From: Brachionus koreanus
Taxonomy: Eukaryota; Rotifera; Eurotatoria; Ploima; Brachionidae
Reading direction: 5' to 3'
Assembly: GCA_016987375.1 (NCBI GenBank)
Contig: PJRA01000313.1
Span: forward strand, 3,844,153-3,908,152
Length of the DNA stretch: 64,000 nucleotides
Shown: positions 13,477 to 52,546 of the stretch, one piece after another
How the letters are laid out: the number at the start of each line of letters is the position of its first letter
Numbering within the stretch: position 1 is the stretch's first letter
Position numbers and translations under genes: made by a program
The notes under the pieces: generated by a model
Told to the model about the DNA's origin: nothing
The model's database searches: none
Seen by the model: the letters and a program-made list of their open reading frames with translations, nothing else

Positions 13477-16400
13477 TGTGACTGTTTGTGTTCAAAAATC
13501 AAATCGCATTATTTATAAAGAAATTTTTCTTCTAAAAATAAAACCAAATATTTGAGATGTTTGTTTATAAAATATACCGAGAAAAAGTGTTAATTGAGAG
13601 TATAAAATTAGAAAATATCCTGTTGTTTAATTGTGTTTAACAGGTTTTAGATTGTGTAACATAACTATTATCTCAGTCTATCGGCTGAGATGGGTAATTA
13701 CATTTTAAAAGTTAATTTTAAATTATTGCCTGCTTGGCTGAAAACGCTTAATGGTCACTTAAAAGATATTAATGATTTATTAATGTCCGGACTTCAAGCA
13801 TAAATCTTTTTATAGTTCTGATGCAATTTAATTTCAATTTTAGTCCATGTCTGAGAATGGATCTATAATTAACTATAACCGTGGGACAGTTGATACTAAA
13901 TTATTGCTCACAATGCTATTAACCTATATTTTTATATAATTTTCTCTTGGTCTCGTGTCATGCAAAAACAAAGAAAAAATTGATTTTATTTTTGATCGAG
14001 CCCGATCACTTATCAGCAAAGATGAACTCGCTTAAAACTTTAAATTTGATACCTTTTTTTTCAAATCCTTTGATATGTGTATAAAGAGCTTTGATTCTTA
14101 TCTCTTTTAAAAGTGATAAATGTCGTAAATTTTAATAATAAAAAAATTTTTTATTCTACATTCAAATTCAAAATTTAAAAAAAAAAATCACATTTCTTTC
14201 AATAAAATTTAAAAATTTAATTTAATAAATTAAAAAATGATTTTATTTTTGTCTATTTTGCTCATTTAAAAAACTTCATTGAATCTTAAAAAAAAGATAA
14301 AACTTGTAAATTCAATTTAAAACAGTCTAAATAGAGTTGAGAATTTATTTGGCCTAAAAAACATCGAATAGATTTAAATTCATCTTTAAGATGCTCTTAA
14401 GGCTCTTTTGCTATCAGATTAAAATGATAAAGTGCATCTAAAATCTAAGATTTAAAAAAATTTAATCCTTTTCTGAGGCATTTGCATTTTTTTTTGACAA
14501 AAACCAAAAACCAATTAGCTTAATCTTGATTTTTGATCTACAAAAAAAGGAAAACATTTATCAACAAAAAATTTGAAATTTCAAGGCTTTCCATAATGAT
14601 CACCTGGCCATCGATTTATTGATTGTAATTAAACGAGTACAAAAAAAAACTTTAATCCTGCATGAAAAGCCCTAGATTAATGAAGTGCAAATACTCGTCG
14701 ATTTAAAAATTGGCAAACTGTTCATTCAAAGTTATCTGATCTTAATGTAAATAAATACAAAATGGATATCAATTTCAACCTTGGTGATTGCCGGCCACTG
14801 ACTCAATCAAGCACCTTAGATCAAATATTTGTACAGAGTCCATGTAAATTTAGTTGTTTAAATATTTAATCTTGACTTTATTTAAACTCAATAAAATCGA
14901 TTAATTAACTCCTTAAATAATCGACTATTTACTTTTCAAATGGACTAATTTTTGGACTCATTTATTCCATTAAATATAGATGGCTTCTGGTAAATAAATG
15001 AATCACTAATGCTCACCTCATTAGTACTTTTTAAATAAGCTATTAAATAGATAAACCATGATTTAAAGTTGAGCTAAATTTTTTTTCATCTCGGACACAT
15101 ATGTTTAATTTTAACGACAAATATAAAATCTTTTTATTTCAATACTAAAATACCTAGTAGCCGTAATAATCAAAAAAAATGTTTGTTTATTCTATTAATG
15201 GATATTTAAATAAAAATGACAATATTTACAACAAATTTACTAGACTGATTTATTTACTAATTGATGTATTCTTACCAATAAAAAATTGTAGATTCAAAGC
15301 CTTTTGGGCTCATATGTTTGATCTAATTTTTTAATCTATCCAATTTCTCTTTAATAAATTAATTTGAACTAATTTTTTTTTAATTAAATAAATTTACATT
15401 TTTTTTTGAAAAAAAAAATTTTTCATCTTTGATACAAACATTTAAAATTTGAATATTAATAATTTTCTTTTTATTTTAATTTAGAATTTCAAGCTAGTTA
15501 TTTGATAAATATCAAAATTTAGATTGAAAACAATAGAAAAATATAAAGAATTATTAATTATTATCTATTGAGTTTAAATTATTTCATTAAGCAGATAGTT
15601 TGGTGAACAAATAATAATCTTGATTAAATAATCATTAAAAAAATAAGAATGTACTGTTAAGTGATTTTTTGCTGAATGTCTAGCATTCGCACAAAAAAAA
15701 AATTTGATTTTAAAATAGCCTTTTACTTGATAATGCAAATCTATGTCAGTTAGTAGCAAAATTGACTTAATTTATCGACTCTATCGCACATGATGTCGAC
15801 CAATATTCCCGAATTTTAGATCTGATAGCAAAATTTAGCTAATTAGGAAGTAGCCTACTGAACTTATCAAAAGAGGCCACTTTAATTTAAGTAAAAAAAA
15901 CTATCTGGACTTACTTGTAGTTTAAAAAGATTAAGACTTTGTTTGAATTTCATCTTATTTTCTAGTGATATAATTTAAGTTAAAATTTCTGTCTCAAAGA
16001 GGATTGATAGTAAATTTACATTTATTAAGAAAAAAATGTGGTAAAGTGAACAAATAAATACCAAATAGTCTATGCAAAATCTTTTATTAGACATTCATAT
16101 TTAGTCATTAAGAACCATAACCTTTTAAGAGACTACCTATATTGAAAAAAAAATTACTAACAACCGTAAATAAAAGTTATGGCTCTATTAGAAACTACTC
16201 GACAATTTATTTTAAATTGCTCTTTAGTACATATTCTTTAAATTAAGTTACTGCTCATATCATACTTGAAAATCACTTATCCATTACCGCTTGCATTACA
16301 AACTAGACGATAAAGATGTCTAGAGATTTTCTTTTGTTGGTCTCTGAAGTGATCTTTGACTACCTTGGTTTGCATTTAAAACGAGCCGCTTTCAGATAAC

Positions 16401-22041: not shown

Positions 22042-25000
22042 TTAAAAAATATTTAAATTAACTTCTTCAATCTCTTCAATCAGATTATTTTTTTCTTGTT
22101 CTGTTTGATTGCTTGAAAAGTTGTCTTGATCACTTAGAATATCAGCATCAGTCTGTTCGATATGATTTTTGCAAAGCCATAAAATTTTTCCGTTTCTCAA
22201 CTCACAATATTCTAAGCCTAGAGGTTTAATAGTTGAATTTCCTCCAAGCCATGACAAAGAAAAGTATCGGTCATTTTCGAATTCAGTAATAAAAAATCCT
22301 CTAAAACTGTTGTACGATTCACCAATATCTAATGATTCAGTTAAAGACTTTTCTTCCATGTCATTAAACAACATATTTCCTTGTTCTGTTAAGAAAACAC
22401 CTAATTCGTTCGAAGAGCTACCATTTCTTAAGATTGATATGATTCTAACCAGGAAAGGACAATATGAACTCAAAAGTTCAGGAAGGATTACAATGCAATC
22501 AGAGAAATGCCAAGACTCTTCGTGCTCGCACATCGGCCTAATGCATGGAACTAATTTAGAGCCAACGTTATTTTCTTCAATTGATTCTGCTCTTTCAAAA
22601 ATCATGTCCTCTGGTTCAACTGTCGCTGCCAAATTTCGTAAACGTTTAATCAACTTTAATTTAGATATTTTTTCTTCGTCTATAAAATCAATACACAAAA
22701 GACGTGGATAGAGTCGTGATGTGGACGTTTGGCTTGTAAACTGGATTAGTTGACGCAAAAATTTACGCTGAGTTAATTCATAAAGCTCTTGAATTGCTGT
22801 ATTGTTTGAATCAATAACGCTATTATTATCATTAACTTCTTCTTTTTTTCTATTTTTTTTTGATTTTGAAAGCTCTAGACGGACATGTTTAAGGAGTACT
22901 GAAAATGCCTCTTCAAAAATTGAACAAAAATTTTATTAAGCTATAAATACATGGAAACATTTTTTAGCTTCATTTCATAGAAGACTATTAGCAAAGAAGA
23001 CCAAAAAGCTCTCAATCAGTCAGAATCACAAAAAAATTTAAACATAAAAAATAAAATTATTAAAATAATTAATATTGCTTTTATTGATAACAAAAAAATC
23101 TCTTTGAAAACCTTTTTTAGAGATTCTTTTTTTTAAATTATTTTTTATTTAAATCTAAATATTTTTATAAATAAATTCTAATAGGTTTTTTTTTAAAAAT
23201 ATTAACTCTTATTTATATTTTGTTTCTATTCAATTTCAAAATAATTGTTTACTGACCGAAATCTTTTTTTTTGTGAAAAACATATTTAAAACTTGTGAAA
23301 TTAATTAGATCAATTATTTCGATATATCCTAAATTTTGCTAAAAAAAAAAACAAATTACCGGGTGTTTTGTACTGAAAATTAACTTCTGGATAGCTGCTA
23401 CCCAAAAATGCGATTTCATTTTTTCGCCATTCATTTCCTAGGCCAACAACAGCTTTGACAATCGGAATCTTGAGTGATATATGGGCGAATCTAAATTCTA
23501 ATTTACAATTTTGTGATTCAACATACTCATCAGAAACACAAGCAACAATAACTTTTGCCAAATTCATTCCTTTAGTTATTTCGCCAAACATTTGTGTTGT
23601 TGAGTCCAAATTGTCCACATCAATCCATGCATGGATTCCATTATCTTCAAAAAATTTGACCAAGCTTCTTGGATCTAACCAGCCCAAGCTTTTATTTGTT
23701 CCTTTAGAGCCTTTTTTTATTGCTTCATGTGAATTAGCCCAACAATAGCTGATAAATACATCCGGATTTTTCTTTTCACTTCCAGTTTTCAAATCAGTTT
23801 GAACAATTTTTTCTATAGATTCAAATGCATCAGCTATTTTTGTCGGATATCGCTTTGGATCTTTCATTATGACTCGAAAATCAGCACACGCTGAAGCAAA
23901 CAACGGATTTTTGAGCCATTCATGAGCACCTAGCTGGCCAAACTCAATTAAAAGATAGGTTTTTTTGATCAAATTTTTGACCATCTCAAATATTTGAATG
24001 CATTTCGAGTCAGAAGAAAAATTATTCGAAACTCCAAAAATAATCAATTTTGACTGCTTGATTGCACTGGTAATTTTGTCCAACCTTTCATTGGACGGAT
24101 CTTCACTATACCAAATATGATACCCCTGCGATTCTATTGCTTTTATTACATTTAATGGGTTTATTGATTTATCTTGGTCTAAATTTGTGTCTCTATCACA
24201 ATACCAAAAAAGAACGTCATATTTAAATGTATTTTTTAAAGAGTTCAAATCACGAATTGTGTATTCTAGATTTAAATCCATATTGTTCGTATCATCTATA
24301 GGCATTATAGCCATCATTTCTTGTATAGAAACAGCATGGAAGTATTTACGGCATTGCAAAAAAGGTGCTTTCATTTCACTTGCTCTTTTAAGCAAAGTAG
24401 AACTAAACAAATAGGGCTCAGTTGATTGTGACTCGACGCAATCCGGACATGGAAAACTAAAATCATACTGAAGACCATTGAATGAATCGTTTATTAATGT
24501 TTCTATTGTTTCATGAATAACAAATACAATATTTTCAGGCTTGACTCCTTGAACTTTTATTTTGATTGAGAGAGCATTTTTTGATTGACTTATAAGAGCT
24601 ATATGGGAATTTTTCTTTAATAAAGAACCTTTCTTCCAAATAATAGAACTGTCTCCATATTGGAAAAGTCTGACTTGAATTCGATTAAATAAACCTATAG
24701 GCAAATACTCAAATCTATAATTAACTTTGAATTGTTTTATTTTAACCGAGCTAAAAGGATCAATTTCTGGCCAAGAAAATTTTGGTTCAGTATCTGGCAG
24801 CAAACATGGAACAATGCTTATTTTCATGTCGGGAACAGGAAATGTCAAATCGAATTCTTCAGTAAGTTTTAGCATCCATTGATGCAATTCTTCGGGATAT
24901 TCGTTCCATATTTCGCCGATTTTGTCGTGAGACAATCTTCCATTTTCAATGCAAGTTTGTCGGACTGAAACTATTTTGGCAAAAGCGTTTACTATCCATT

Positions 25001-28000
25001 GAGGATTGATAATTACTTTGTCTTTTAAACTTTTATTCTCAAAATATTGGAGTGAACCCAAATCATTTAAAAATTTTACTGCTTGTAAAATTTCTTCTGA
25101 GTCATAGATTCCATTTTTTTCTGCAATTGAGTTTATTAAATTGAATGAGAGTAACGAGTCTTTGTCTGACCTTTGCTTAATACTTTTCTCAAAATTTATC
25201 CAGGCTTCCTTTAAAATTAATAGAATTGAATTAAAATTTATTTGTAAAAAAAATGAGTAGTTTATTAATCAAAAAATCAAAAGAATGAGTTATTTTGCTA
25301 ATTAAAAGTAAATTTTCTAATAGGATTCAAAATATTTTTTCAAATTTAATTTTTCTTCTTGAAGATTAATTGATTTTAATGAATAGTTTGATTTAGAAAA
25401 ATTCTCAAATAATTGGCTCACTTTATTTATTTATTTATTTGTTTTCTGTACCGAGCTAATGCTCCTTCAGAAACAAAAATATTTTTCTTTATCTTACTAT
25501 TTAAATTTCACAAGTGTGAAAACTAAAAAATTAACTAATCTAAAATATCAAATAAAAAAATAAATTCACGCGCTTAAATACGAATTTTACGAAGAAGAAG
25601 CGCACGAATTTACTTTGATTATATAATTAAATTTGGACAAACAAGTCAATTATCAATACAATAATACATTTCAATTATCGTATATAATAAAACATTTTTT
25701 CCATTTTTTCTGAGTCAAGATATATTGAATACCCTACTCCATTGTGTAATTGCTACCTAACTATTTCCTCTTATTTCCATGAAGCTTCAGCTATTTAAAC
25801 TTCTGTCACATGTAACAACCTATGTCTTTTAAACTTTATATTTTTTTAGCTGATTTACTTTATTTTATTTTATCTTTTATTCTATTAACTCTATTTTTAT
25901 TTTTTTACTTTATTCTGAAGGAGCTCTAGCTCGGTACAGAAAACAAATAAATAAATAATAAAAATACACCAAAAAAATAAACCATAAATTTTTGTTCAAA
26001 CATAAGCTCCTTCAAATAAAAAAGAAAAGTAAAAATTTAAAAGAAAAAACGTTTAAAATATTTTAAACTTGAATAAATTTTATCTTTTTATTTATCGGCA
26101 AAGTAAATATACAAAAATTAAAAAACTTTATAAATTTTCTTCTAATGGTCAAAAACTTGTTGAACAGATAAAAAAAACTGAAACAATCGTTATTTATCTA
26201 CTACGGAAGTCTGCAAGATTCCACTCAATATAATAATATTGAAAGTGAAAACAAATTGCAATCAACTTGCATAAATTTTGAAGACTTCCGTAGTAGGTTA
26301 AAAAACTGTTGTTTCACTTTGTTTCATCTGGAACAAAAATTTGACCATTTGGACAAAAACTGTAAAATTTTTTACCACATATGATATTTATAAATAATTT
26401 TAATATGTAATTAAAAAACTAAAATACTGAATTAGGAACCAAATTTTAAATTTTTTTGCATTTAATGTCAATTACATTAAAATTTATCACTTTTCTTATT
26501 TAATAATACATGATTGATTGGAATAAAACTTTTATGATTAAAAAAAAAACAAAAATTAATTATTTGTTACTTAATTTTAAAAATATTTTGGATTGAACAC
26601 TCTTTTTATTAAACATTTATGTAAACTATTGTTACGTTATCTCAAAATTCAATTATAAAAAATTGTAAAAAGGTTTTCGCTCTTCGAAAATTGCTAAAAA
26701 AGCCTTAGAATTTGAGGGGAATAATTGGATTGGAAAGAGTAGATTGGGAAACAGTGAAAAAGTGATTAATTATAAACGCGGAAGATCAGCAGTATCAAAT
26801 AATTAAAAAAGCATTTTATTTTGTTTTTTATTTTTTTGTTAAAATTTGAAAATAAGTATTTCTATTTTATTTTTTAAATAAAAAATAATGAAAAAATTTG
26901 GTTTAAATTCAGTAATTTAGTTTTTAAAATAAACACAGGTAATAATTATAAGCCATATTTTAATTTTTTTAAAAAAATTTGTTTTTACATGATTCATCTT
27001 GTGAATTTAGCTAAACTAAATTAATATAAAAGAACTCACTGGTATTTTTTCATCAATGTACTTTTCTTCCAAAGTTGCTTCAATAATTTTTTGTTTTAAC
27101 TCTTCAATGCCTTCACCAGTTTTAGATGACACAAAATGAAATCCAGCAATGTCTTTAAATCTAGATCTTAAATCTTCTTCATCGAGAGTATATTTAAAAA
27201 CCTTAATTAATTTTTGCATTAATCAAATTTAATTTTTTGGTTTAATGTAAGGCTACTTGATCAACATGAGTTCCAACAACAAAAATAGGTGCGCCAGGTG
27301 CATGGACACTGATGCTACTTAACCAAAATTCCAAACCAGCATATTCACTTCCTAGTCTCACATTCCACACGAGCAAGTAAACTCCTCTAGAACTAAGAAA
27401 AAATTGATGCGTATTGTAATATACACTTTGTCCGGCAAAATCCCACATTGAAAATGTTAAATCGGATCCGTCTTCTAAGTTTATAACCCAATCATCGATG
27501 TCAATACCATCAGTTAGCTCTGTACTCTCATCACAATGCTCTCCTTTTAAACTTCGTAAAAGAGATGTTTTGCCAGCTTGGCCTAAACCAACTAACATTA
27601 ACTTGGTTCTTTTAAACTCTAAAGAGCCGGATAGCAGCCGTTTAAGATAAGTAAGAACTGAATTAAAGCCTCGCTTTACCACCTCTGATGGTGGAGTTAC
27701 TAAAGAAAGACAATTGTTCAAGTCTAGTTTGCTAATTGACAAATTTGCTAACTTGGGACTTATATTTTCCAAAAGAATACAATTGCTTAAAATTAAGCTT
27801 TTAAGGTTTTTTAAATTTTCAATTTCATCAGGAATTTGTTCTATAGACTGAAAGCTCAAGTCAAGGACTCTTATATTGATCATTTGAAAGATGATGTCCG
27901 GAATATTCGGGCCCAGGCGCAAATATTTTTTGAATATAAATGCGTTTATTTTGATTATTTCTTTTATTTCCAAATATCCATTAGAATTCCAATCAAAATG

Positions 28001-28924
28001 GTCAAATAGCCGTCTTAATTGATGCTCTTTGAGTATTTTTGTTTTTTTGAATTCATTTTTTAAATTCTCATAACTAATTAGTGAATCATTTTTGCCATAT
28101 TTGTCCATGTCTATTAAAGGAATACCAGAAAGTTTCAGTTCAACTATAACTTCAGGATTTAAATCAAAACAAAAGTAGTCAAATGATGAACGAGATATTT
28201 TGAGTGTTTTTATTGAACCAGGCAAATTGATTAATTGATTTTTTTCATTTATTTCCAAGTTTTCTAAGTCCAAAGTTTCAAGGTTTTTCAAATGATCAAA
28301 AGATAAATGCTCTGATTTTAGTCGATTGTTAAAATAAAGTGCTTTTAGTCCTTCTATTTCAAGCAATGAATCAGGAAGATACTCGAGATCATTGTTCAAG
28401 AGTTTTACATCGACTAAATGTGGAAAAAGTTTGAAAAATACTGGACTCTCAATCGAAAGTGGAACGTTTATGATAAGCAAATTTGTTAAATTTGGATATT
28501 TATCAGCAAAATTTGTGTCTAAATTTAGCCCAGAATCTGAGCCTATTAGACCAAATCGTGTACAAAATTTAGAATATTCATTAAATTTTTTTTCTAGTGA
28601 AAATTCCGGTTCACTTGATGATTTATACTTGTAATCAGCCAAATAGCAATAGTAGCATCTACCCAAATTGACGTTTTGAAGACTTGGATTTTTTTGAAAT
28701 TTGTAAACATCCGACTTTTGTTCTTCTTTGGACAAAAGACTCAAATACTTTTTAACGTTACACTCATATTTACGCTTAAGCATATCGTTTTGACTCACAA
28801 AAAGGCTAAGATAATTTATTAAATGTCGTAAATATAATCGAATATATCTAGTTAATTGATCACCACTTAAATCTTCATTCTGATCAGTGAAAATTTTAGC
28901 ATCTTCGGGAACAATAGATGAAAA
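22042..28924 (-). CDS. 3' part of the giant Roc-COR gene: LRR, EF-hand-like loop, Roc GTPase, COR, two TIR domains, C-terminal domain
   Basis: Exons 28924-27257, 27201-27040, 25208-23360 and 22910-22042 keep phase and give about 1515 residues, numbered here 1308-2822 of the joined frame. LRRs lie at about 1456-1740. They are interrupted by DWNSNGYLEIKE (1618-1629), a good 12-residue EF-hand loop. The Roc GTPase has an intact P-loop GLGQAGKT (1753-1760), DFAGQ (1802-1806), THVD (1860-1863) and SSKTG (about 1890). COR follows (1918-2170, with INPQWIV and IWKKGS strings). TIR-like domain 1 spans 2246-2380 and is diverged. TIR domain 2 (2399-2510) has DVFISYCW, HAWIDVD and NCKLEF, where the Glu (about 2488) sits at the position of the catalytic Glu of NADase TIRs. 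The end holds CEHEESWH and ILWLCKNH blocks of unknown role. Roc-COR proteins are dimeric GTPase scaffolds; TIR tails imply innate immune or death signalling. The first exon begins without an ATG for some 50 codons, so it needs upstream exons. Intron 27039-25209 carries two transposon insertions. Confidence 0.85.
25424..25960. mobile_element. Foldback element with 46-bp inverted arms inside an intron
   Basis: The left arm (25424-25472) reads (TTTA)n, then TTTGTTTTCTGTACCGAGCT, then a GCTCCTTCAGAA block. The right arm (25912-25960) is its inverted copy, with AGCTCGGTACAGAAAACAAA followed by (TAAA)n. They differ at about two positions. Both A-rich tails point outwards, as if two 3' ends of a short retroelement stood head to head. 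It lies in the 1.8-kb intron between the Roc and COR exons. Confidence 0.75.
26201..26294. mobile_element. 94-bp MITE with TA target duplication
   Basis: The termini are inverted repeats CTACGGAAGTCTGCAAGATT (left) and, as the reverse complement of the right end, CTACGGAAGTCTTCAAAATT. TA flanks both sides (26199-26200, 26295-26296). The size, the TA duplication and the lack of coding capacity fit a very short non-autonomous Tc1/mariner-like element. It sits in the same intron as the foldback at 25424-25960. Confidence 0.85.
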
Positions 28925-29537: not shown

Positions 29538-32500
29538 TTTTGATATTAGAACCATGTAAGCAGATACCAATATTAGAATTAAATCATTTGAATCAAGTAT
29601 TTTTTTTTGAACTCTAATTCCACTTGATTTAAATAAATGAGCATAAATTATCTGCTGGTCATTTGACTTTACAAGACAGCACATATGTAAATTAAATTCT
29701 TCTAAAATACTGCTTCTTCTTATCGATAATATATTGTTTATGCTAGATGGCAGAATGATGACTCCACGAGTTGGTGCATTGGCCGATCCATAAGTGGTTA
29801 TTATGTTTTTTTCAATTAAATGATTCCAGTTTTTAGATATGAATTCTTGTAAATTACCAAGCTTAAGACTGGTGTTCGGTAAATTAAAACATGATGTTAA
29901 GACTTGCTGATTTTTGTTTCCTTTAAAATCTGATATGGTCATGCCACTTTTTTGGTCCTTAAATAAGTATATATTTAATTAGTTTATTAAAGAAAAGGAA
30001 AGATTTAAAAAAAAGAACCAGTGTAAAAATATCAAAAGGAACTGCAAAAGCGTTTTTTTCAGATAGATAGTTTTCCCATTTAAATTCCTTTTCACTTTTT
30101 TCTTTATAATCTTAAATAATCAATTTAAAATTTTTGTCTTTTAAAGTTGATTTTAGTATATTTACCCATCGGTACATCAAATTTAATGTTTGTTAGATCA
30201 TCTTCGATTAGCCAGTTTCTTTCTTTGACTTTTCTTCGATGATATTCAGTCCATCCGACAGGTTTCAATTCAGGACTGAATATTTCGGACCAAAAGTCAT
30301 AGTTAGATGCCCACCCATCAAAATGCACAAGAACCAAATTGTCGCGTACATCAACTATGTTAAATTTAAAAGTTTTCAAAAAACAATAATTGTAAATTAT
30401 GATCTTTGTTTGAATCTAATATAAGTTAGGCTGTTTACAAAAATTTTAAAGAGATTAAGTAACAGTTGGTAAGATAAGTTTATTTATTAATAATTTTAAA
30501 TTTTAAGTCAAATGAATTCTATGCTCTGTAAAAACCCTTCATTTTCCCTTTAAGATGCACACCATTAAAAAAAAATAACTGATTAAAATATGTAATAAAT
30601 TGAAGAGTTTTAGCAGATCTTAGAATATATTTGTATAAATTTGTAGGATATTGTGCTGTTTGCAAAAGAGTTTCATTGTTCCCCACAAATTAAAATTAAT
30701 TCAATTACGCTATAATTATATTATTATTATTATTATTATTTTTTAAGCTCAAGCCTCATAGGCAAAAAAAAAAAGTTAATTTGAATTTGGAAATAAGTTT
30801 TTTAACTGTGGTAAACCATTAAACCCTTTCCCATTTAAGCACAATTGGTAAAAAAAATTTTATAATTATTAACATTCATTTCAAAAAAATTACCCCAGAT
30901 TCGGCTATATAAAAATTTAAATAATAAAAAACATCATTTTTATGAAAAAGAGAAAAAATTATTGAGACAATTTTTTCCACGATATTATTAATTTACATGC
31001 ATATTTAAAACTAATTTTAAAAGAGATTTAATTTTAAAAAATTAGATTAACTATGTAAATTTTATGAAAGATCTCCAAAATACGTCAAATACAAAAATAA
31101 ATTAATTGAAATTTAAATTGAGAAAAAACACAATAATTTAGTTGAACTTTTTGCTTTTTTTACGTAATTTTCTCTTATTTTTTTTCTTTAAAAATTTTAG
31201 TTTATTATTTAGTTTTAATCATTATTCTTAAACAAATTTTCTTTGACTTTAATTTACCGTAATTAATAGATACTTTTTGAAAATTATTCTTAGACAATAA
31301 AAAACTGATTAAGCTTACCAATAGTAGCAGGGGAGATCAAATTAGGATAAAGTTTATCTCTAGCTTCTAAACGATGATTAATTAGAGATTTCAAATCAGT
31401 TTTGGTATATTTTTTTGCATGTATTGAGTTATTATATTCTAAGCATTTAGACAAGTAGTGCGAATTTGTCGGTGTGTCATCTGTATGACCGATAAAAGTA
31501 AACACTGGTATCAGATATTGATGTGTATATTCGATTTCTAAAATTTTAATTCCATTTAATGTAATATCAGCAATTTTATGACTTTCATTCTAATAAATAC
31601 AAATTAAATTATTCACATATTTCAAATTATTTTTAAAATATCACAATTTTTCTTATTTTTAGCAAAATAACATCGCCCAAATTAATTTGGTTATTTAAAT
31701 TAGAATTGAGACTTAAAAGGGATCTCTTGACTTTCAAATGCTCGCAATTCTGGTCGTATTTGATTTCCATTTTGTTCAGTTCAATCCAAATTGTATCTGA
31801 TCCATTTGATTTGTAGCTTTATTTTATCAAATTTAAATTAAAAATTATTTTCAAATATGTTCTTTTGTAAAAATTTTAGTTTTTCTTTTAAATGACATTT
31901 AACAATGACTTAAAATGAAAATTTTGAATAAAAATCAAAACTCATAATTTTAAATGGGCTCAAATTATTACAGTAATTAAAAAATTTACCATGCTAAAAC
32001 TAAATAAATGCTTTCAGTTAAAGCTAAATTTCTATCCATAAATTTGAACGAATAAACTTCGTAGTTTTGTTCAGTGATAACAACTTCTGGTTCGAATGCA
32101 AAAACTAAATTTTCATTTTGCAATTCAGCTGTTCCCCAGAACAAAGGTATCTTGGTTTGAACGACATTTATCTCATTCAATTTTGGATACAAAACAAAAA
32201 AAGCATTCTTAAGTTTTATATGATAATCGAAATTCATAAAGCAATCAGCGCATCTTAGTCCATCATCATTTGTTGTTTTAAAATTGTGTAAATATTTGCC
32301 TATTTGACTTCGATAAAAGTACACATCACTTTTGCTAATCGAGTGATACATCTTAATTAAATCGGCTTTGAAAAAAAAATATATAAAAAAAACTAGCTTT
32401 TCAAATTTTCATCTACCTGAACGATTGTTCAGAACTTCAGGTTCATTGTTTTCAAGTTGAATTGGATGACTTATCATCTCATTTTCAATATTTATCTTTT

Positions 32501-35500
32501 CATTTTATTCATTTAATTAAAAAATTTGAATAAAAATAATGGTTTACTTTATGTGGAATATGATTCTTTATCAACAAGTGTTTTAAATAAACATAGAAAT
32601 TCATATAAATTGCTTTGAAATGATCTAAATAGGATTTATCCTGCAAATCAAAATGTTTTTCTGGATCTGACATCCGGACGGCTAAGCGAACTTAAAAATT
32701 TTCTAGCTTAAATTCTGACAAGATAGTTTTTTAAAGCTTACCTTCTTTTTCTGTATATTGAATGAGAGCATCAAAATGGGTATCACGATAGTAAAATCCA
32801 TTCTTCCACAATTTAATACATGTTTTACTATCAAAGTACATGGTAATAAGATCTGAAAAAACATTAAAAGGCAAAGGAGAAAATAACTCCCAACCAATTT
32901 TATACTCCAAATCAGACCAATTTTCATCCCATTTCTTAATAAAGTCAATTTAGAGTTATTTCTATTATTAATTTAAAAATATTAATAAACAAAGACAATT
33001 CTAATTTTAATTTAAAATGAATATTTGTATTTTATTGATTAATTTTCAACATAATCCTTTTAAAAAAAGATAAAATTTTTGATTTAATTTAAACCAATGT
33101 TCAAAGTAATCTCCAAAATTTAATCTTAATTAAAATAATTAGAAAAATTTTAACTTTATATAGAATAAAGATCATATTTGTTCCAAAAAATCACTGTGAA
33201 CTAAACTTTATTGAAGGCCTATTGTGATTATATATATTGATACTTAAACAATTTGTTCGTACTAGAAAAGATAAACATTTTGTTTAGTTAATTGATGATG
33301 CTGTAGAAGATTTTATTAGAAAAGAGATTAATAAAATATTAGTGCGAAGATTTTAGAGGTCAGTTGAAGCATATAATAAATGATCACCTTGTAATGAAGT
33401 CCTAAATGTATATTTTTCAAGTAAAACTTAGGCAACTTGTTAACAACATTTAAAAATAACAAATTCATTACTATAAAATCAAAATGTATTCAAAATTAAT
33501 AATTATGTAAAAATACGTCAAAAATTAACATTTAATTTCATTAATTTAAAAATATTTAAATTTTTTTTTTAAATGGACCTTTTTTGAGCGTTTTTAAAAA
33601 TCTTAAAACTAAATAAATAAAAAAAGTAAAATCATATTTTTGTTCAGAATTTTATAATGGTAAGGGAACTTTCAAAAATTAGATCCCGAAAGAGTTAAAC
33701 AATATCAAAATTTTTCCGATTTTTTTTGAAAAAAATTTTCTCTCCAAGATAGCCAGCTCAGAACATAGATTTTTTAATTCTTTATCTAGAAATTTGTCGA
33801 TCAAGTAGATTCGATTGATAAAATTCCTAAGTAAAATCTGGAGATAGTGTAAAAGTTTTGCATTTCCCTAACTTTATAATACATAAAATGAGCCATAATA
33901 ATTTGCAAATATATTAATTTTTTGATGAAAATTTTGAAAATTTTTCAGCAATCCTTTGGATCGAATTTTTTTTCCTAAATTAAATCATCAACTGAATTAA
34001 TTTTTATTCAAAAATGACACACTCATTTTTACTAAAATTAAATAAAATTTGAAAATTAAAAATGAATTCAGCTAGATTGCATACAAATCCTAATTTTTTT
34101 TTATAAAAATTATGAAATTTATTATTAACACTAGAAGCACCAAACGATTCAAAACGACTCGTTTTAAAATTTTTTAAATCCTCGTATCTTTTGAATGAAT
34201 TTTTGAAATAACTATATCTTTTTTGATTTATGTAGATTTTAAAATTTTCCTTAAAAATAATATTACTTAATAAAATTGTTATAGTTTTTATTATAAAATA
34301 ATTTCAAATTAAAAAAACGTGAAAAAATGCTTGGTGCTTCTAGAGGTAAATTAAGAAGTCAGAGAGGTAGAAAAATACAATTCAATCATAAATTGTCAAA
34401 AAAAATATTTTACAATAATTTTATATTTACCATAGATGATTCTTGATTTTTACTTAGACAAAAAAGAGGTATCATTATATGTTCTTCAGGTAAAATTAGT
34501 AAATTGTTTTCTTTTAAAAACGAAATTAGATATCGAAAAATTTGCTCATTTGGACACAAATTTTTCAATTTTTCCCTCAGTTCAGAACTATTCCAAATGG
34601 GAATATTCGAGCCAAAAATATTGTTCAATTTTGATTCACTGGTTATTCCATTTGACAAAATATCCATAACATTCATAAGCCAATTTATATCAGTAATTAT
34701 GTAAGATGTTTTTTCATTGTAAAAAAAGTGACCACGGGCGTTCTCAGCCTTTGCATATCTCATTGATAATTGCTTATAAAATTTTGTTTGATAATACTTT
34801 AGTTTTTTATTCGATTCGAATAACTGATTGAATTCATCGGCCGTTATAATAAATCTAGTTTTCAAATTCAAATATCTATCTATTAGCTCATCAATTTCAT
34901 GTTCGTATTTTTCATGATTTTCATCATAAAACAAATTCCATTTGAACATATAGAACGAATTATCTGCAATGTAGCTTCTTAAAGATACATTTAAATCTTT
35001 TTGAGAATCATCATCATTTGGAATGATTTGAGTCTTTATTTAAAAATAAACTTTATTTATTTATATACTTTTTTTTAAAATTTTATTACCGGTTCTAATG
35101 AAGAACAATAGAAATAAACAGAACGAACAAATTGACACAATACTGAAGCTGTTTTTGAAATTTTTGAAATGTATTCGGGATTGAAATTTGGCATTTCTAC
35201 ATACTGTTTAACATGCTTTAATTTGTATTCATTTACCAAATTAATGTCGAATTCTTTCAGTTGTTTAACAAAGCTTGGAGAATTGATGAGTCTAACAAAA
35301 TTTTGATAACTAGCTGGCTTAGCGAACAGATAGCACATAGCTTCAGCTACAATTTGAACTCCTGAAGGCGGAGCTTTAAGAGACTTGAGTTCTGCTAAAT
35401 CAGCATTGGTGATATTAGAAACTATGCTATAAGCATCGTTCTTATAAAATTCCGAGTGACTTGATGCCTCTTGCCTCAAATTAAAATTGTTTAGAATCAT

Positions 35501-36689
35501 TATTTTATCCGAATTGTTCTCAAAATTTATGCAAGCATAATCCAAGAGATTGATTAGATAGCCTATATGTTCAGCTAGGTTTAGAATGTCGCTCAATTCA
35601 AGTTGAAGATTAAAATTTAAATTTAAATAATTTCTAAAATTTAGCAAAATTAAATTTAAAAAACAAAATTGAAAAATTTTCAGAACTACTTCATGTGTAA
35701 ATCAACTGATTTTCTTAATTTTTTTTCCAAATTTCTTAAGGCTTTGTTGACATTCGACTGAATTTTTTGACAAAGTGTTCCTTCAGCTTGTCCAATGCCA
35801 AGAATCAAAACTTTAGCTGGTAGAATATTTTTTGTCATCACAATTAGTAAGCGTGGTAAAAGAGAATTTTTGATCGTTTCTTCATCTAAGCTAGCATCAA
35901 ATGTCAATATGACAAGATTTCTTTCGCTCAGGAATAGTTCGCAAGTTGACTTTAATAAAACCAAAATAAACAAAATCTTAATTTAAATCTGAATCTTGAT
36001 ATTACTTGTGAGCATTCAAAAAAATTGATTGTTTTTTTATTAGGTAATTTTATTTTTACATATTTAAAAAATTCATTTTTGTCATTTCTAATTTTATTCA
36101 AATTAAAAACATTTTCGCTTAATTTTGAATTAAACGAATTTGAATTTATCAAGATACATTTTGTCTGATCAAAAGAAGCCTCTAAATTTTAAAATTTATT
36201 AAAATAAATTAAATGAAAAAATTATACCATTGTGAAAATTCTTTTTAGGATCACAATTCAAAGATACCATTAAACTCTCTGATATTCTTGGGCAGCATGA
36301 AAATCTTTTATTCAGCTTGGTTAATATAAATTATGAAAAATTTTTGAAATTTTTTATTTTGAGTTTTTTTTTACTTTGATTTCTGGAAAACTGAATAGAT
36401 TTTTCCCGTTGAATGAGTTCAAATGATGCAATGTCCATATTGAAATATTTGCACACCCATTTAGAAGAAAATGGTCCAAGTTTTCTTTTTTAACATTTTC
36501 GTCTTTAGACAAAATAGATTTTAGAATCCAAAATAACAAGTCGGTAGCGGTCTCAACACCAGAAAAGTCCAATATTTTTGCATTTTCGAACTCATTTGAC
36601 CTGATCAAGGTGTCTAAATCCAGTATCGCATTTCGAAAAAAAATTTCTTTTGGTAGATATAAAATTTTGGTAATTTCGTTATCTGACAT
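29538..36689 (-). CDS. 5' part of the giant Roc-COR gene: degenerate Roc, dynein stalk-tip-like module, COR, MBT domain
   Basis: Fifteen exons keep phase: 36689-36375, 36315-36228, 36181-36006, 35949-35690, 35633-35090, 35033-34431, 32934-32742, 32690-32548, 32495-32417, 32365-31990, 31816-31645, 31589-31319, 30354-30166, 30110-30019 and 29957-29538. That is 1307 residues from the ATG at 36689. Residues 130-265 look like a Roc domain that has lost its P-loop and DxxG motif (ECSQ where DFAGQ is expected) but keeps the FLSERNLVILTFDAS strand. Residues 345-460 match the dynein heavy chain stalk tip: ADLAELKSLKAPP, then FNPEYISK, then LCQFVRSVYFY. COR covers 470-775. An MBT repeat runs from HRLEARDK (about 1050) through VHFDGWASNYDFW and PVGWTE, with an arm-like WENYLSEKNAFAVP at about 1150. 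The last exon (1168-1307) is an unrecognised domain. It ends in a donor (AAA|GTAATTG) that is in phase with the exon at 28924. Between exons 6 and 7 lies a 1.5-kb intron with a MITE. The exon 11 donor is the least certain. Confidence 0.8.
30717..30741. repeat. (TTA)n microsatellite
   Basis: Eight TTA or TAT units in a row in the intron between exons 12 and 13 of the Roc-COR gene. No function is suggested. Confidence 0.8.
34129..34350. mobile_element. piggyBac-like MITE in an intron
   Basis: The left end CACTAGAAGCACCAA follows a TTAA (34125-34128). The right end is the inverted TTGGTGCTTCTAG (34331-34343), with a TTAA at 34351-34354. The inner 13 bp match perfectly; the outermost bases on the right (AGGTAAA) have diverged. 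TTAA targets and a CxCTAGAA start are typical of piggyBac. The element lies in the 1.5-kb intron between exons 6 and 7 of the Roc-COR gene. A related start (TTTAACACTAGAAAGCCCG) occurs at 43571-43589. Confidence 0.55.
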
Positions 36690-38645: not shown

Positions 38646-40163
38646 TTAAATATAAACAGCTAAATTTTGAAAATCAATTAAATCTATGCTATAATTATTA
38701 TTTAAAATATATTCAGTTTTTTCACTAGGATACTCATCCAAGTTTCTTTCATCTCTTCGATTTCCATCAAAATCCAAAAAACTTATGATCTTAAGAGCTT
38801 TGTTGAATACAGCAATAACATTTTGATTATTAATTCCAAATAGGTTAGTATCCTGATCGATTTTGATGCTTTTTACAAATCTTCCGTCATCTTTGTCTAC
38901 CACAATTATTTGATTTTTTTCTTTAAAAAACAAAAAACTATCATTAACAAAAAATTTTTCCGTATTTTCTGGCAAGTAAAGACACGTCTTATTCTCACTA
39001 GAATAAATCTTAAACAAGTTTAAGGAAAAATCATAAGCTTGTAAAGTAGACCCAAACTCTGATTTGCCAAGACACAATATTAAGTTATTAGATATAACAA
39101 TACTTTGTATCAAAAAAACAACATTAATACGAGCAACCTCATTCAAATTATAATCAAAACCAATCAATATGTTACCAACATTTAGCGCAATCATTCCTTC
39201 ATTAGCCTCTATTTCATAATCCGTTTGATTTTCACTAAGCTCTAATTCAAAACGTCGCTGACATTGATTCAAATCATGAACTTGTAGCACCAGCTTGTAG
39301 ACTAAACTATTTGAATCAGTAGCAATATCAATGTCATAAGATGTCATTACAAAACTAATAGAAAAAAATTTTTCATTTAATTTTTTAATTTTTAAATTTT
39401 GTCTTAATTCGTTTAATCCATCCAGTTGTTTTGAAAAATCAATTTTCATATATTCCGAAAGTTTAATAGGATCTATGTGATGTTCATAGATAAAACCAAG
39501 TGCTCGAGGATCAATTGAAGCTGGATTTTTTTTGAAGCTAAATGTTTCATAATTTGAAATTTGATTTTTAAATTTTTGAATTTCAATTCCAAGCCGTGAT
39601 TTGATTGTTTCAGCAATGAGAACATTCTCTTTGACATGTGTGTCTTTTTTGTAAGGCTCTAATTCTTTAACAAAATAATAATACTCAGTGTTATAATTAG
39701 TATAATTCTCCAGACAATTAGTCTCATAATTCAGTACTTTTTCAACAAGATCATTGCGTAGCTGATTTATTTGGTCACATTTCAAATCAGCCTCGATCTC
39801 AATATCATTTATAATTTCTTTCACAGAATCTTTAATTTTTTCTTTGCATGTTTCAAAGCTTTTTCTCAAAAAAACCCAGTCAGCTTCAATTTCAAAGATA
39901 CATTTTAGCCTTTTTTCAATCTGTCTTTCGCTTAAAGTTGCTTTGTTAATGTTTATAGCTTTAACTAGCGCTTTGTTTTGAGGAAAACCATTTTCTGGTA
40001 TTTCATGAACAGAATTGCAAAGTCTGCATAGGAAATTATTCGAAAAAGGACCAATTGGACTGACACATTTTGAACATATACTTTCGCCACACGGTAAAAT
40101 AATGGGTGATTGATATTCTTTGTGACAAATAGGACATGATAGTAATTGTTGATTTGAAAGCAT
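38646..40163 (-). CDS. RING-finger, coiled-coil protein, probable E3 ubiquitin ligase
   Basis: Intronless, 505 residues, ATG at 40163. The N-terminus is a RING: CPIC at about 10-13, PCGESICSKC at 25-34, and CRLC at about 46-49. The loop that in C3HC4 fingers reads CGH has CGE, so the usual metal-binding His is absent. The ligand pattern may be altered or shifted. A long charged helix region with coiled-coil character covers roughly 75-210. From about 250 to the end the sequence alternates short beta-like strands (ALNVGNILIGFDYN, LFGINNQNVIAVFN) with the rhythm of a beta-propeller, but no NHL or WD signature is clear. The layout is TRIM-like without an obvious B-box. Proteins of this sort usually move ubiquitin from an E2 to a bound target; the target here is unknown. 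Confidence 0.75.
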   Translation of the reverse strand: MLSNQQLLSCPICHKEYQSPIILPCGESICSKCVSPIGPFSNNFLCRLCNSVHEIPENGFPQNKALVKAININKATLSERQIEKRLKCIFEIEADWVFLRKSFETCKEKIKDSVKEIINDIEIEADLKCDQINQLRNDLVEKVLNYETNCLENYTNYNTEYYYFVKELEPYKKDTHVKENVLIAETIKSRLGIEIQKFKNQISNYETFSFKKNPASIDPRALGFIYEHHIDPIKLSEYMKIDFSKQLDGLNELRQNLKIKKLNEKFFSISFVMTSYDIDIATDSNSLVYKLVLQVHDLNQCQRRFELELSENQTDYEIEANEGMIALNVGNILIGFDYNLNEVARINVVFLIQSIVISNNLILCLGKSEFGSTLQAYDFSLNLFKIYSSENKTCLYLPENTEKFFVNDSFLFFKEKNQIIVVDKDDGRFVKSIKIDQDTNLFGINNQNVIAVFNKALKIISFLDFDGNRRDERNLDEYPSEKTEYILNNNYSIDLIDFQNLAVYI

Positions 40164-40612
40164 TTTAAAAAATAATTTTATTTTTTTTTACAAATAATGC
40201 ATTTTAAAGAATTTTGAGTTAAAAATAAATGATAAAATTTAGTTTTGACTTTTTAATTTTATCTTTGATAACCATTCCTCTTTATTTACGATCTAAGACC
40301 TAAAAATATCCTAAGGCTCAGTTCTTGTTTTGATAAACTGCTTTTAAAAATCATGCAAGATTATATAATGAAGAAAAAGCAATTTTTGTCAAAATAATTC
40401 TGAAAATATTTTTCTGAAGATTTCAAAATCCTCAAATATTTGAGAAAACAAAAAAAAAATATTCTTCTAATTTCATGATTAAGCAACAGGCTTATGTCCT
40501 TAAAATTGACTTATTAACACTTCATTTATTTAAAAAAAAAAAAAACTATATTTTTAAATTGAGATTTTTCAAAATAAATAACAATTTTTGATCAAGCCTT
40601 ACTTTAAATATT
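40164..40612. other. Upstream region of the RING gene
   Basis: AT-rich; expected to hold the promoter of the minus-strand RING gene. No element can be named. Confidence 0.35.
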
Positions 40613-41857: not shown

Positions 41858-44589
41858 ATGAGTGATGTAAATTGCAAACGATATTTGGCCAAAATTACTG
41901 AAGATTCACGGCCAATTCCATATGCAGAAATTGTTTATCAGCCATCCTCGGTATATCGTATGAGATATAAGTCTGAAAATAGAACATCTTATTTAATTTC
42001 TGAAAATTCTGAGGGTGATTGTCCAATAAATTCAAAAAATAAAAAATGTGTCCAATATCCAAAAGTTAAGGTAGGAATTTAGTCCAAAATAAAATTTAAT
42101 TTCTCAGTTCTTTTTTTAAAATTAGTGTCTGTTTTTTTTTAATAAGAAGAATAAACATAAGATTTTGTTTTTATTAAGATTGTTAATGGTGAAGGTCCAG
42201 CTACTTTGATTGTATCTTGTGTTAATAAAACTGAGCCATATTATGTTCATCCGCATAAATTGATGGGCAAAAATTGCATACATGGCGTTGCTTTATTTAA
42301 TATTAATAAAGGAGATACTGTTTTTGAGTAATTTGATGAAAAATTTGTAAAATAATTTTTGATGAGTTTATTTTTTTTTAGTTTGTCAGAAATTTCAATT
42401 CAACCAACTTTAAAATCAAATACTGAAGACAGGATCCTTGAATTAATAGAATATAATGTTGATCCTTTCAATCGTAAAAGAATTCTTAAAACTGTTATTT
42501 GAAAAAAAATTCTACGAAATTATAAATTTTATTTTAGTTGGATATAATTTTGACAGAAAATTAATCGATTTATCATGTGTTCGACTATGTTTTCAGATTT
42601 TTTTGAGAGATTCTTTTGAAACAACTGAAATAATACGTGATAAATATCATATTCTGAAGCCACTGGTCTCTCAGGTTATAAGCTCAACAACCAATTCCTT
42701 ATCCGTAAAAGAAACTTTTTATTCGAGCGGTTCTTGTGATGGAGGCTCAGATGTAATTATATTTATAAAAAAATTAGAAAAGGATCAAAAAATACTAAAA
42801 GCCAAATTTTACGATTCCCATGGATGGAGTTCAATTGTTGACATTGAAGATTCAAAAATTCACTATCAAGTATAAAAAATTAAAAATTTTTTTAAAAAAA
42901 AAGATTTATTCACTTTTTTAATTGATTAATCATAATTTTTAAGTGTGCTCTTTCGTTTAAAGCACCCAAATATCCAAAAAAAATAGACAAAGAAGAAACA
43001 GTATCTATCAAATTATTTGTTCCCTTTAAATCGGAAGAAGAAAGAGATAATGATGATGAAGACAGCATGGAATTTAATAATCAAGTTTCATCATCTTCTG
43101 TATCATCTTTGGATTCTCGACAACTAGGCCAATATGAGTCAGAGGAGATCAAATTTGTCTACTATCCATCAAGTATTAATTTACATTCTCTAAATTTATT
43201 CATTTAAAAACTATTTTTGATAACATTTAGGCGTTGGAACATATTCCAACGTACTATTTGAAGAAATTCTAGATACTAAACGAGGTATCAGAATCTTGAC
43301 TCACTCATTAAAACATCCATTTTCAAATATTTCTTTTTAAGAGAATATAAAAGATAATTGTTATATGATCAGGAGAAATTTTCAAATAAAAGATCAATTA
43401 CATTGACGAGGAAACTATTAATATATTAAGTTAATATTTCTCACATTTAATTTAATAACACTAATTTTTTTTACACGTTTTTTTATTTAAATCCTAAAGT
43501 AAGTCTTCAATATGAACATTCAAAATCAAAAAAACAAAAAAAATAAATATAAAATTTTATTAAAAAACCTTTAACACTAGAAAGCCCGAGGAGTTTCGTA
43601 GGCCTCTTTTTTGAAAATTGAAATTTAAATTTTATCCACATGTAAATAAAATTTCAGAAAAATTGCTTTTATCATCTAGAAATCTTGATTGAAATTCTTC
43701 AGAAAATGAGCGAATTTAAATAGGATAATTTTACGGAAAAACAAATTCTTTTATAATAAGTTAAGCGTTTATCATAAATTAGAATTTAAAAAAAATGAGA
43801 AAAATAATCTTTTTTCATGTAATTTTACTCTAAAATTTAACAACAATTTTTCTAAAAATCTTATGATTGTATTTTTGAATTTTATTTTATTGTAAATAGG
43901 TTCAATTTCAAGTTTACCAAGCGATCTGCCAACTAAAAATTTAGATATTATCAATAATCAACATGGGGTCGAATTGAATCACTCAAGCAGTTTTTCTGAT
44001 CAAAATTCAATTTTTGGTAATGAAATTATCAAATTATTAATTGATTTTTTAAAGATAATTTAGCCGTTGATGATTTAGCCGTACATTTGGTCGTCCGCCT
44101 TTATCACCGTCCGTTTAGGCAGGCCTGCTCGCGGCCGAAAAAATTTTTGGCCGCATCAGCGACCGCTTGTACGGCTCTCAACACTAGTCTAAGCGATTTC
44201 AGATAGTTTTTTATTCACTTAAAAAATAAATTACTAGTTTTATTTGTTTTAAATTAAACTATTATTTTTGAATACTAATGAATATATTTTTAGATTCAAC
44301 TTTTCTTCAAACCACAAATGTTAATAGTGATTTTTATGATGATAACAATCTAGATTATAATAGAAGTAGACAAGCTATTTCAAATGATCAAAATATTGAT
44401 TTATCAGGTATGTTTTTGATTATTTCGAAATATTGTCGATTGATTATTTTTCTCAATTTATATATTATAGATTTAATTCAAAACGATCCACCAATGCAGT
44501 TTTTTCTACCAAGTTTGAATGTCCTTCCAAACTTAGATGTTGATGATATTGAAAAACTAGTTACCATTCCATCAAAAAATTTTTTTTAG
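41858..44589 (+). CDS. Rel/NF-kB family transcription factor, copy 1
   Basis: Nine exons in phase: 41858-42070, 42179-42327, 42382-42473, 42538-42869, 42944-43172, 43231-43284, 43900-44016, 44294-44407 and 44471-44589, giving 472 residues. The DNA-binding half of the Rel homology domain starts at about residue 19 with PYAEIVYQPSSVYRMRY and continues through GPATLIVSCV, YYVHPHKLMG, DLSCVRLCFQIFLRD. The dimerisation (IPT) half follows with SGSCDGGSDVIIF, GWSSIVDIED and CALSFKAPKYP. In the DNA recognition loop the usual RFRYxCE is RMRYKSE, so the redox-sensitive Cys is Ser. Beyond the domain come acidic/Ser-rich and Asn-rich segments of low complexity, with no ankyrin repeats, so this is a Rel/Dorsal-type and not a p105-type protein. 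No clear nuclear localisation signal was found. Rel factors bind kappa-B sites as dimers downstream of Toll-type signalling. A paralogue lies at 50214. Confidence 0.9.
43571..43589. repeat. piggyBac-like terminus, single end
   Basis: TTTAACACTAGAAAGCCCG in intron 6 of the first Rel gene resembles the left end of the element at 34129-34350. No partner end was found nearby, so this is a weak call. Confidence 0.3.
44077..44176. mobile_element. 100-bp GC-rich foldback element in an intron
   Basis: The outer ends AGCCGTACA and TGTACGGCT are inverted repeats, followed by similar GGTCG strings on both sides. Near the centre is a second hairpin, GCGGCCGAAAAAATTTTTGG then CCGC. GC content is much higher than in the surrounding intron (intron 7 of the first Rel gene). 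It looks like a MITE-like insertion; there is no coding capacity. Confidence 0.6.
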
Positions 44590-50213: not shown

Positions 50214-52546
50214 ATGGGCGAAATACCGAATGGACGGCCAATACCATATGCAGAAATTGTCTATCAGCCATCGTCGGTATACCGTATGAGATATGAAGCT
50301 GAAAATAGATCAACTCATTTAGTTGCTGAAAATTATCTACCAGAGCGTGATAGTCCATCGAATACTAAAACTCGAAAAAAAAGCCAAACAACCGAAGGCC
50401 AATATCCAAGAGTTAAGGTACACTTTGTTTCAAAATAAAATTTTAGATTTTTTCTTCAAATACTAAATCCAATAATATTTTTTAAATAAGAAAGATGTTC
50501 ATAATTTTTAATCCATACAATTATTATTTTAATTTATTTATGCATATGAAAATTGAGATTAAGTCAAATTTTATTTTTATTTATCAGTCAAAAACCAGAG
50601 GGTTTTTTTTCGGATCTTTGTGCAACCTTATAATTTTATTTTTTATTCCATGAAAATAAGCAGCAAAAATTTATAAATTTCAATTTTTTAAATCTAAATT
50701 TCTGATTGAAAAAAAATCCAAAAATAATAAAAGATGTAACACAAAGTGTTATTATTTGAATGTTAATTAAAACTTGCTCATGATTTTTTTATTTTTAAAT
50801 ATTTTTGTATCCATTAATTGAATTAAACAAAATACTGACATATTTTTTATTCTTAATTAGATAATAAATGGTGAAGGTCCAGCTACTTTGATTGTATCTT
50901 GTGTTAATAAAAACGAGCCGTATTATGTTCATCCGCATAAATTGATGGGTTCAAGTTGCAAGCATGGTGTAGCTGTTTTTAATATTGAAAAAGGAAGCAG
51001 TGTTTTTGAGTAATTAAATGAAAAATAAATCAGATAATTTTTGATGAATTTATTTTTAAAAAGTGTATCAGGTGTTTCTATACAGTATACAAAAAAAAGT
51101 GATATTGAAGAAAGAATCAAAGAATTAAAAGAAAAAAATGTTGATCCGTTCAATCGTAAATATTTGGTCACTAATTATTTAATAAATTCAGTTATTTGAT
51201 CAGCAAAATAAAAAAATTTATTTTAGTTTTTTTTTTGGACAATTTTGAGTGTGCGTGTTATCAACTATTGCATAAAAATATAAAAATGACAACTAATAAT
51301 GAATGATGAAAAATTTTAATTTAGTAATTATTTTGACTGAAAATATAACTGAATCAAAAAATAATGCTTTCATTTCAAATTTAAATTAATTTATATATTA
51401 ATATTAGTCGGGTTTAATTTTGACAGAAAATTAATCGATTTATCATGTGTTCGACTATGTTTTCAGATTTATTTGAGAGATTCTTTTGAAACAACTGAAA
51501 TAATACGTGATAAATATCATATTCTGAAGCCATTGGTTTCTCAGGTGATTAGCAATTCTTCTAGAAAAATAACTTTGTCGGTAATTTCGGCATTTAACTT
51601 GAGCGGTTCATGTGACGGGGGTTCAGATGTAATTATATTTATAAAAAAATTAGAAAAGGATCAAAAAATACTAAAAGCCAAATTTTACGATTCCCATGGA
51701 TGGAGTTCAATTGTTGACATTGAAGATTCAAAAATTCACTATCAAGTATAAAAAATTAAAATTTTTTTAAAAAAAAAGATTTATTCACTTTTTTAATTAA
51801 TTAATCATAATTTTTAAGTGTGCTCTTTCGTTTAAAGCACCCAAATATCCAAAAAAAATAGACAAAGAAGAAACAGTATCTATCAAATTATTTGTTCCCT
51901 TTAAATCGGAAGAAGAAAGAGATAATGATGATGAAGACAGCATGGAATTTAATAATCAAGTTTCATCATCTTCTGTATCATCTATGGATTCTCGACAACT
52001 AGGCCAATATGAGTCCAGGGATATCGAATTTGTCTATCGTCCATCTGGTAAAAATTTTCATTTAATAAAAATATTTATTTTAACTTTTTTTAAGTTTTAA
52101 ATACTGTTTCTGACCAAAAAAATTTGACAGAATCTTTTTTTGGATTTTCTGAAGCAGCTGACAAAGAAGGTTTGATGTAAATTATTTTTTTAAGCTTATT
52201 TATTATTTTTTCATTTTAAGCTGTTAGTCATATTAGTTCTCAATCAAGAAAAAATTTGCATAAACGTCAATTAACCAATTTAAAAAATTTCAATCCACGA
52301 TTATCTAATATTCCGAATGAATTAATTTACAATGATCCAGTGCTTACAAATAATTTAATGTTTGATAATATAATTATTGAAAACTTTTCTTTTAATGAAA
52401 TTAATCAAATCAACAATTATTCTCCCGAAATTAATGACTTAAAAAAACTAATTGAAAATGTAAATTCAACAGATGAAGAAGCCAACTTAGATTTTATTGA
52501 TACCAATGACCTTTTTTTACAAAGTATAGCTGATTCTATATTTTAA
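50214..52546 (+). CDS. Rel/NF-kB family transcription factor, copy 2
   Basis: Seven exons in phase: 50214-50417, 50861-51009, 51064-51155, 51408-51745, 51819-52047, 52095-52169 and 52221-52546, giving 470 residues. It is a paralogue of the gene at 41858, with the same intron positions through exon 5 (exons 2, 3 and 5 even have identical lengths: 149, 92 and 229 nt). The Rel homology domain starts with PYAEIVYQPSSVYRMRY; the recognition loop again has no Cys (RMRYEAE). Most of exon 4, the short intron after it and exon 5 are almost identical to copy 1, including silent and intronic bases. Exons 1-3, the first intron (443 bp against 108 bp) and the C-terminal exons have diverged. The C-terminus is Asn/Ile-rich and ends in an acidic segment that could serve as a transactivation region. 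There are no ankyrin repeats. Confidence 0.9.

Follow-up and report, generated by a model that had tools for sequence, protein, structure and literature searches.

Introduction

The microtubule-binding domain (MTBD) at the tip of the dynein stalk is normally considered along with the motor and the stalk, since the tip needs the stalk for its change of affinity, register shifts of the coiled coil setting the affinity for tubulin. LRRK2, a member of the ROCO superfamily, is not known to carry a dynein tip or an MBT repeat, and has a kinase in place of a TIR domain. In plants, NLR receptors with integrated domains have been proposed to work as decoys (PMC7145615). Here we describe a stretch of 64,000 nucleotides (the window) from the rotifer Brachionus koreanus (assembly GCA_016987375.1, contig PJRA01000313.1, positions 3,844,153 to 3,908,152 of the forward strand), in which a ROCO gene almost certainly contains a dynein heavy-chain stalk tip. 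The exon encoding the tip, without motor or long stalk, is colinear with exons for an MBT repeat and a Roc-COR-TIR part, and the reading frame is kept between them.

The stalk-tip exon

A preliminary description of this DNA had placed a dynein stalk-tip module in exon 5, and the profile search of the exon 5 translation against the dynein MTBD (Pfam MT, PF12777) confirmed it. The match to the exon 5 frame was significant (E 6.3e-11, 42.3 bits vs a cut-off of 24) and spanned residues 63-169 of the 176-residue query and positions 96-210 of the 344 positions of the profile; in the protein model of 2822 residues the same family was found at residues 350-455 (E 3.9e-9, 36.4 bits). Among the solved structures the top match of exon 5 was a chain of 4191 residues of the axoneme entry 8glv (E 7.6e-15), labelled as AAA+ ATPase domain-containing protein, and the next chains were labelled DHC2 and DNAH2. 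A profile built from four paralogous exons reached E 6.5e-22 with the 8glv chain and 6.7e-21 with DNAH2. The landmarks pointed out earlier (ADLAELKS..APP, FNPEYISKISK and LCQFVRSVYFY) fall inside the dynein alignments, and exons 4, 5 and 6 do join in phase.

The helical fold of the MTBD is present in the predicted structures of the tip. The long antiparallel coiled-coil stalk (CC1, CC2), which was also looked for, is absent, the predicted models showing short end helices only, in agreement with the limits of the profile match. No AAA+ family, the mark of the motor ring, occurs among the 13 Pfam families found at E <= 0.1 in the 2822-residue model.

Structure of the gene

The 19-exon model was predicted from the DNA, without transcript, and its junctions were picked by eye (Table 1); the donors of exon 11 (GTGATA) and exon 14 (GTTCTT) are weak. 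The in-phase joins on both sides of exon 5 in the preliminary description were retained, while the gene extends beyond what it described, through the MBT exons to those for the LRR-like region, Roc, COR and TIR.

After exon 15, an alternative short terminal exon that ends in a stop also reads in phase. A gene ending there was replaced by the 19-exon model because P0003, a predicted protein of Brachionus plicatilis, crosses the junction of exons 15 and 16. The same short exon would fit an arrangement of two adjacent genes, one carrying the tip and the other the LRR-Roc-COR-TIR part, as would the shortness of two further B. plicatilis predictions, P0001 and P0002. However, the 15/16 junction is kept in phase, with agreeing borders, in the window, in three other copies and inside P0003, and no Met precedes the conserved start of exon 16 as far back as the last upstream stop. 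Thus two genes seem rather improbable, and all 19 exons very probably encode one polypeptide.

Table 1. Features of the predicted ROCO gene (positions within the window)
Feature	Positions	Strand	Remarks
Whole predicted gene, 19 exons, 2822 aa	22042..36689	-	18 junctions in phase, GT...AG, single terminal stop
Exons 1-2, N-terminal segment, LRR-like by eye only	36689-36375, 36315-36228	-	conserved in paralogs and in P0001 of B. plicatilis
Exons 3-4, Roc-like segment without P-loop	36181-36006, 35949-35690	-	
Exon 5, dynein microtubule-binding stalk tip	35633-35090	-	acceptor TTTTAG/AAATTA, donor GAACCG/GTAATA
PF12777 match, stalk tip only	35108..35425	-	profile 97-210; from genome profile search (C2:3879260-3879577)
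Exons 6-8, COR-like segment of N-terminal half	35033-34431, 32934-32742, 32690-32548	-	
Exons 9-12, unnamed segment between COR-like part and MBT	31319..32495	-	colinear in paralogs; exon 11 unmatched in one
MBT repeat, split across exons 12 and 13	30224..31373	-	PF02820
Exons 14-15	29538..30110	-	phase-0 join of exon 15 with exon 16, also present within P0003 of B. plicatilis
Exon 16, LRR-like region, EF-hand-like loop, intact Roc GTPase	27257..28924	-	Roc at 27604-27260
Exon 17, end of Roc	27040..27201	-	62-92% identity across three copies
Exon 18, COR-A, COR-B, TIR	23360..25208	-	COR-A at 25205-24798; TIR near 24149-23979 and 23663-23478
Exon 19, C-terminal tail and stop	22042..22910	-	42-98% identity across four copies, one clipped by stretch end

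The two halves of the predicted protein

In the C-terminal half a Roc domain (residues 1748-1862, E 6.2e-22) with the P-loop GLGQAGKT is followed by COR-A (1917-2054, E 4.1e-30) and COR-B (2076-2215, E 2e-32), the order by which a ROCO protein is recognised. TIR families were detected above their cut-offs (TIR_2, E 1.3e-12, 48.7 bits vs 28; TIR, E 5.4e-8, 33.3 bits vs 21.3). By eye, the second TIR contains a run S..Y..S..C..E, a putative NADase motif. Judged from its sequence, this half is equipped as a TIR receptor with a GTPase switch, and it is likely to work as an active Roc-COR switch whose output is TIR. In exon 16, LRR_14 scored 22.3 bits vs a cut-off of 40, LRR_4 and LRR_8 were likewise under their curated cut-offs, also in P0003, and the Pfam scan of the 2822-residue model showed no LRR family at E <= 0.1. 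The LRR-like region ahead of Roc also includes an EF-hand-like loop (DWNSNGYLEIKE), under the Pfam cut-off.

The MBT repeat (PF02820) lies at residues 1056-1117 (E 1.3e-17). Such repeats are usually chromatin readers. The genome has 12 MBT matches, three of them at loci of this gene family; Pfam did not find the repeat in P0003.

The tip had been described as lying between a Roc-like and a COR domain. By position its flanks are read as Roc-like and COR-like, but Pfam recognises no Roc or COR family in the N-terminal half, and the intact Roc-COR sits in exons 16-18. Comparison of the two halves by hhalign gave no significant match (COR E 0.16, Roc E 0.053), and in hmmsearch with the same profiles the only match to the C-terminal COR was at -1.1 bits. 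Both the P-loop (GxxxxGK[ST]) and the THxD-type motif, which the C-terminal sequences have, are missing, by eye, from five N-terminal sequences. In a Foldseek search with the 615-residue model of P0002, 48 of the best 50 of 458 rows carry dynein or axoneme titles; the AlphaFold2 model of this protein is weak beyond residue 440 (predicted local distance difference test, pLDDT, about 30-46), where a COR-B would fall. The N-terminal half is probably what remains of a Roc-COR unit after decay, and the tip an insertion that separates its Roc from its COR.

The gene family in the genome and in Brachionus plicatilis

The genome profile search, covering 83.3 Mb in 92 contigs, gave 26 matches to PF12777. 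Four of these are limited to the tip (about profile positions 92-211), namely the window, one on contig C27 and two on C15, and the other 22 are read as exons of heavy chains. When exon order was compared by tblastn, two loci on C15 followed that of the window nearly throughout, at 802-785 kb (exon 11 unmatched, exon 19 clipped by the end of the stretch) and at 1240-1223 kb. On C27 exons 1-6 and 16-19 were matched, with masked sequence between; at C15 1220-1207 kb the match ran from within exon 6 to exon 19, the start being masked, and on C32 only exons 16-18 were matched, the rest being masked. The tip is thus seen at four of the six family loci, the other two being masked there. The borders and phases of exons 4, 5 and 6 are identical in two diverged paralogs.

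P0001 to P0003 have the same tip and order as the window gene under automatic names and are unequal in length. P0001, 'dynein heavy chain domain-containing 1-like', is 73% identical across 69% of the 662-residue query, and P0002 is named 'dynein heavy chain axonemal'. In P0003 (1849 residues), the tip and the COR-like and MBT-like segments lead directly into an LRR-like and Roc part, in which the protein ends. Its database record, named 'serine threonine-kinase pats1', lists PF12777, PF08477 and one LRR family; no kinase family was found in a Pfam scan of it. A search of 5.77 billion protein sequences returned, among the matches listed, only P0001-P0003 and a weak dynein fragment, P0004 (E 1.7e-4), two of the protein searches resting on the best 7995 candidates and relatives without shared 5-residue words escaping them. 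Among viral contigs there were two pattern matches and no relative was found. So far, this giant ROCO family has been found only in Brachionus-like rotifers.

In a tree of tips, which leaves out near-copies, partial matches and P0003, the five family tips (window, loci L027 and L029, P0001 and P0002) split from 12 heavy-chain tips of the same genome with support of 100/99. Since the window pairs with P0001 and L029 with P0002, the tree suggests a duplication before the split from B. plicatilis. The longest end branch (1.51) belongs to L016 (C8:409692-410621), a very divergent dynein stalk without most of the basic contact residues, which might be a DNHD1-like protein.

The restriction of the match to the tip and the dynein names of P0001 and P0002 could suggest an artefact, with exon 5 as a displaced piece of a dynein heavy-chain gene. 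This was rejected as highly improbable, since the same exon, borders and phases recur in diverged paralogs, the order is the same in B. plicatilis, the family tips stand apart from the heavy-chain tips, and the exon is under purifying selection, as follows.

Selection and the tubulin-contact residues

The window gene and the C27 copy, which may be an allele, were compared over 2177 codons, with exons 7-15 outside the comparison; synonymous (dS) and nonsynonymous (dN) divergence were 0.0995 and 0.0106, respectively (ratio 0.106), and the aligned introns differed at 162 of 1895 bases. The counts for single exons are small: exon 5 has 9 synonymous and 4 nonsynonymous differences (dS 0.087, dN 0.009, ratio about 0.10). 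Exon 16 is similar (dS 0.148, dN 0.009), unlike exon 6 (dS 0.067, dN 0.025) and exon 4 (dS 0.027, dN 0.017).

Residues of dynein that contact tubulin, named in PMC6125590 and PMC4230729 as K3298/K3299, R3342 and E3378/R3382, were mapped via the cytoplasmic dynein of the same genome. At these sites the window tip has T/N, S and E/K, and the L027 tip R/K, S and D/R, while the last pair is without a basic residue in L029, P0002 and P0003. The rotifer's own cytoplasmic dynein also differs from the named residues, with N/N at 3378/3382.

The loss of basic contact residues in several copies, the missing long stalk, and the existence of similarly shaped bundles, 8-12% identical, in further axonemal or conoid chains would suit a tip recycled as a helical module for another partner, or serving as a mere bridge of the Roc-like and COR-like segments, with microtubules uninvolved. 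The clear sequence kinship with dynein tips and the low dN of the tip exon suggest instead a kept surface, and we regard such recycling as unlikely, at perhaps one chance in a handful or slightly better.

Proposed function

Taken as a whole, the best explanation, in which our confidence is evenly poised, is that of a tip-carrying ROCO receptor docked on microtubules or tubulin. The flanking segments would hold the end helices of the tip in place of the sliding stalk. Since only short end helices remain, a tip clamped by its neighbours would have one state and act as a fixed dock, by which the receptor would be held at the lattice; when GTP drives the C-terminal Roc-COR to rearrange, the TIR domains would be brought into a signalling state. 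Docking of the tip to microtubules or tubulin, taken by itself and predicted from the sequence, is plausible, if slightly short of probable. The suggestion of a microtubule-linked signalling scaffold holds as far as a dynein tip in one gene with Roc-COR-TIR is concerned, and is tentative in its microtubule part.

By analogy with plant receptors, the tip, and perhaps the MBT repeat too, may be an integrated decoy which mimics a host protein targeted by pathogen effectors, so that contact with or modification by an effector, and not the microtubule, would switch the receptor. This accords with the GTPase switch together with TIR, with the placing of the extra domains on an apparently decayed second Roc-COR unit, and with the several diverged copies, between which the contact residues vary. 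Against it, the tip exon has changed slowly in the pair of nearest copies, where an arms race might have driven rapid change, and we hold a decoy to be unlikely, a little more so than recycling. A still more speculative proposal is an animal equivalent of these plant receptors: the TIR-ROCO receptor would carry the dynein tip and a chromatin-type MBT reader as bait on its decayed second Roc-COR unit, would guard the microtubule/dynein track, possibly along with a nuclear mark, and would fire when a pathogen effector touches or alters the bait. With docking as the favoured reading, a question opened is that of the fixed affinity state of a tip clamped by other domains.

Other features of the window

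In two long frames, 6419-7660 (-) and 8848-10014 (+), Pfam finds PARP_regulatory (E 3.4e-22 and 3.4e-17), the regulatory subunit of poly(A) polymerase, a family known from poxviruses and met here in a rotifer chromosome. Within a GC-richer patch, two stretches of frame 11824-13491 (-) match F5/8 type C (discoidin; E 3.2e-55). The neighbouring frame 38646-40187 (-) has an N-terminal RING-like segment, every Pfam match being under cut-off. Frames 42450-42875 (+) and 51365-51751 (+), about 9 kb apart, are very similar (GYNFDRKLIDLSCVRLCFQI... and GFNFDRKLIDLSCVRLCFQI...), by eye a local duplication, and frame 63276-63836 (+) has, also by eye, a homeobox-like segment.

Comparison with known systems

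Among the listed titles of open PubMed Central (PMC) papers, none dealt with a ROCO protein carrying a dynein tip or with this rotifer family, and none of the papers contained both Pfam accessions or the automatic name plus Brachionus. The preliminary description knew of no Roc-COR protein with this module; this agrees with those titles, but the P0003 record already combines the two under the name 'pats1'. The combination is new to the literature searched, already in databases under another name, well supported as anatomy and predicted in its function. The automatic names ('dynein heavy chain', 'pats1') mask one coherent family, in which the tip seems to be kept without motor or stalk across at least one speciation, in a receptor-like protein of the same superfamily as LRRK2.

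With the plant NLRs the rotifer protein shares, by analogy, the uptake of a foreign host domain; the NTPase and the kingdom differ, and no effector is known for the rotifer protein. Whether animals, like plants, build intracellular receptors from pieces of host machinery is the wider question opened here. The tip has the sequence profile, helix order and predicted fold of the dynein heavy chain MTBD (PF12777), with its best scores among short-tip axonemal chains (8glv_Fm, DNAH2, DNAH6). Unlike a dynein heavy chain, the protein has no AAA+ family in the Pfam scan and no long stalk, the protein context is another one, and some of the tubulin-contact residues differ. The C-terminal half resembles the LRR-Roc-COR-TIR ROCO proteins (Roc with P-loop, COR-A, COR-B and TIR over cut-off, LRR below), from which the window protein differs by the apparently decayed Roc-COR half in front, with the dynein tip and the MBT repeat.
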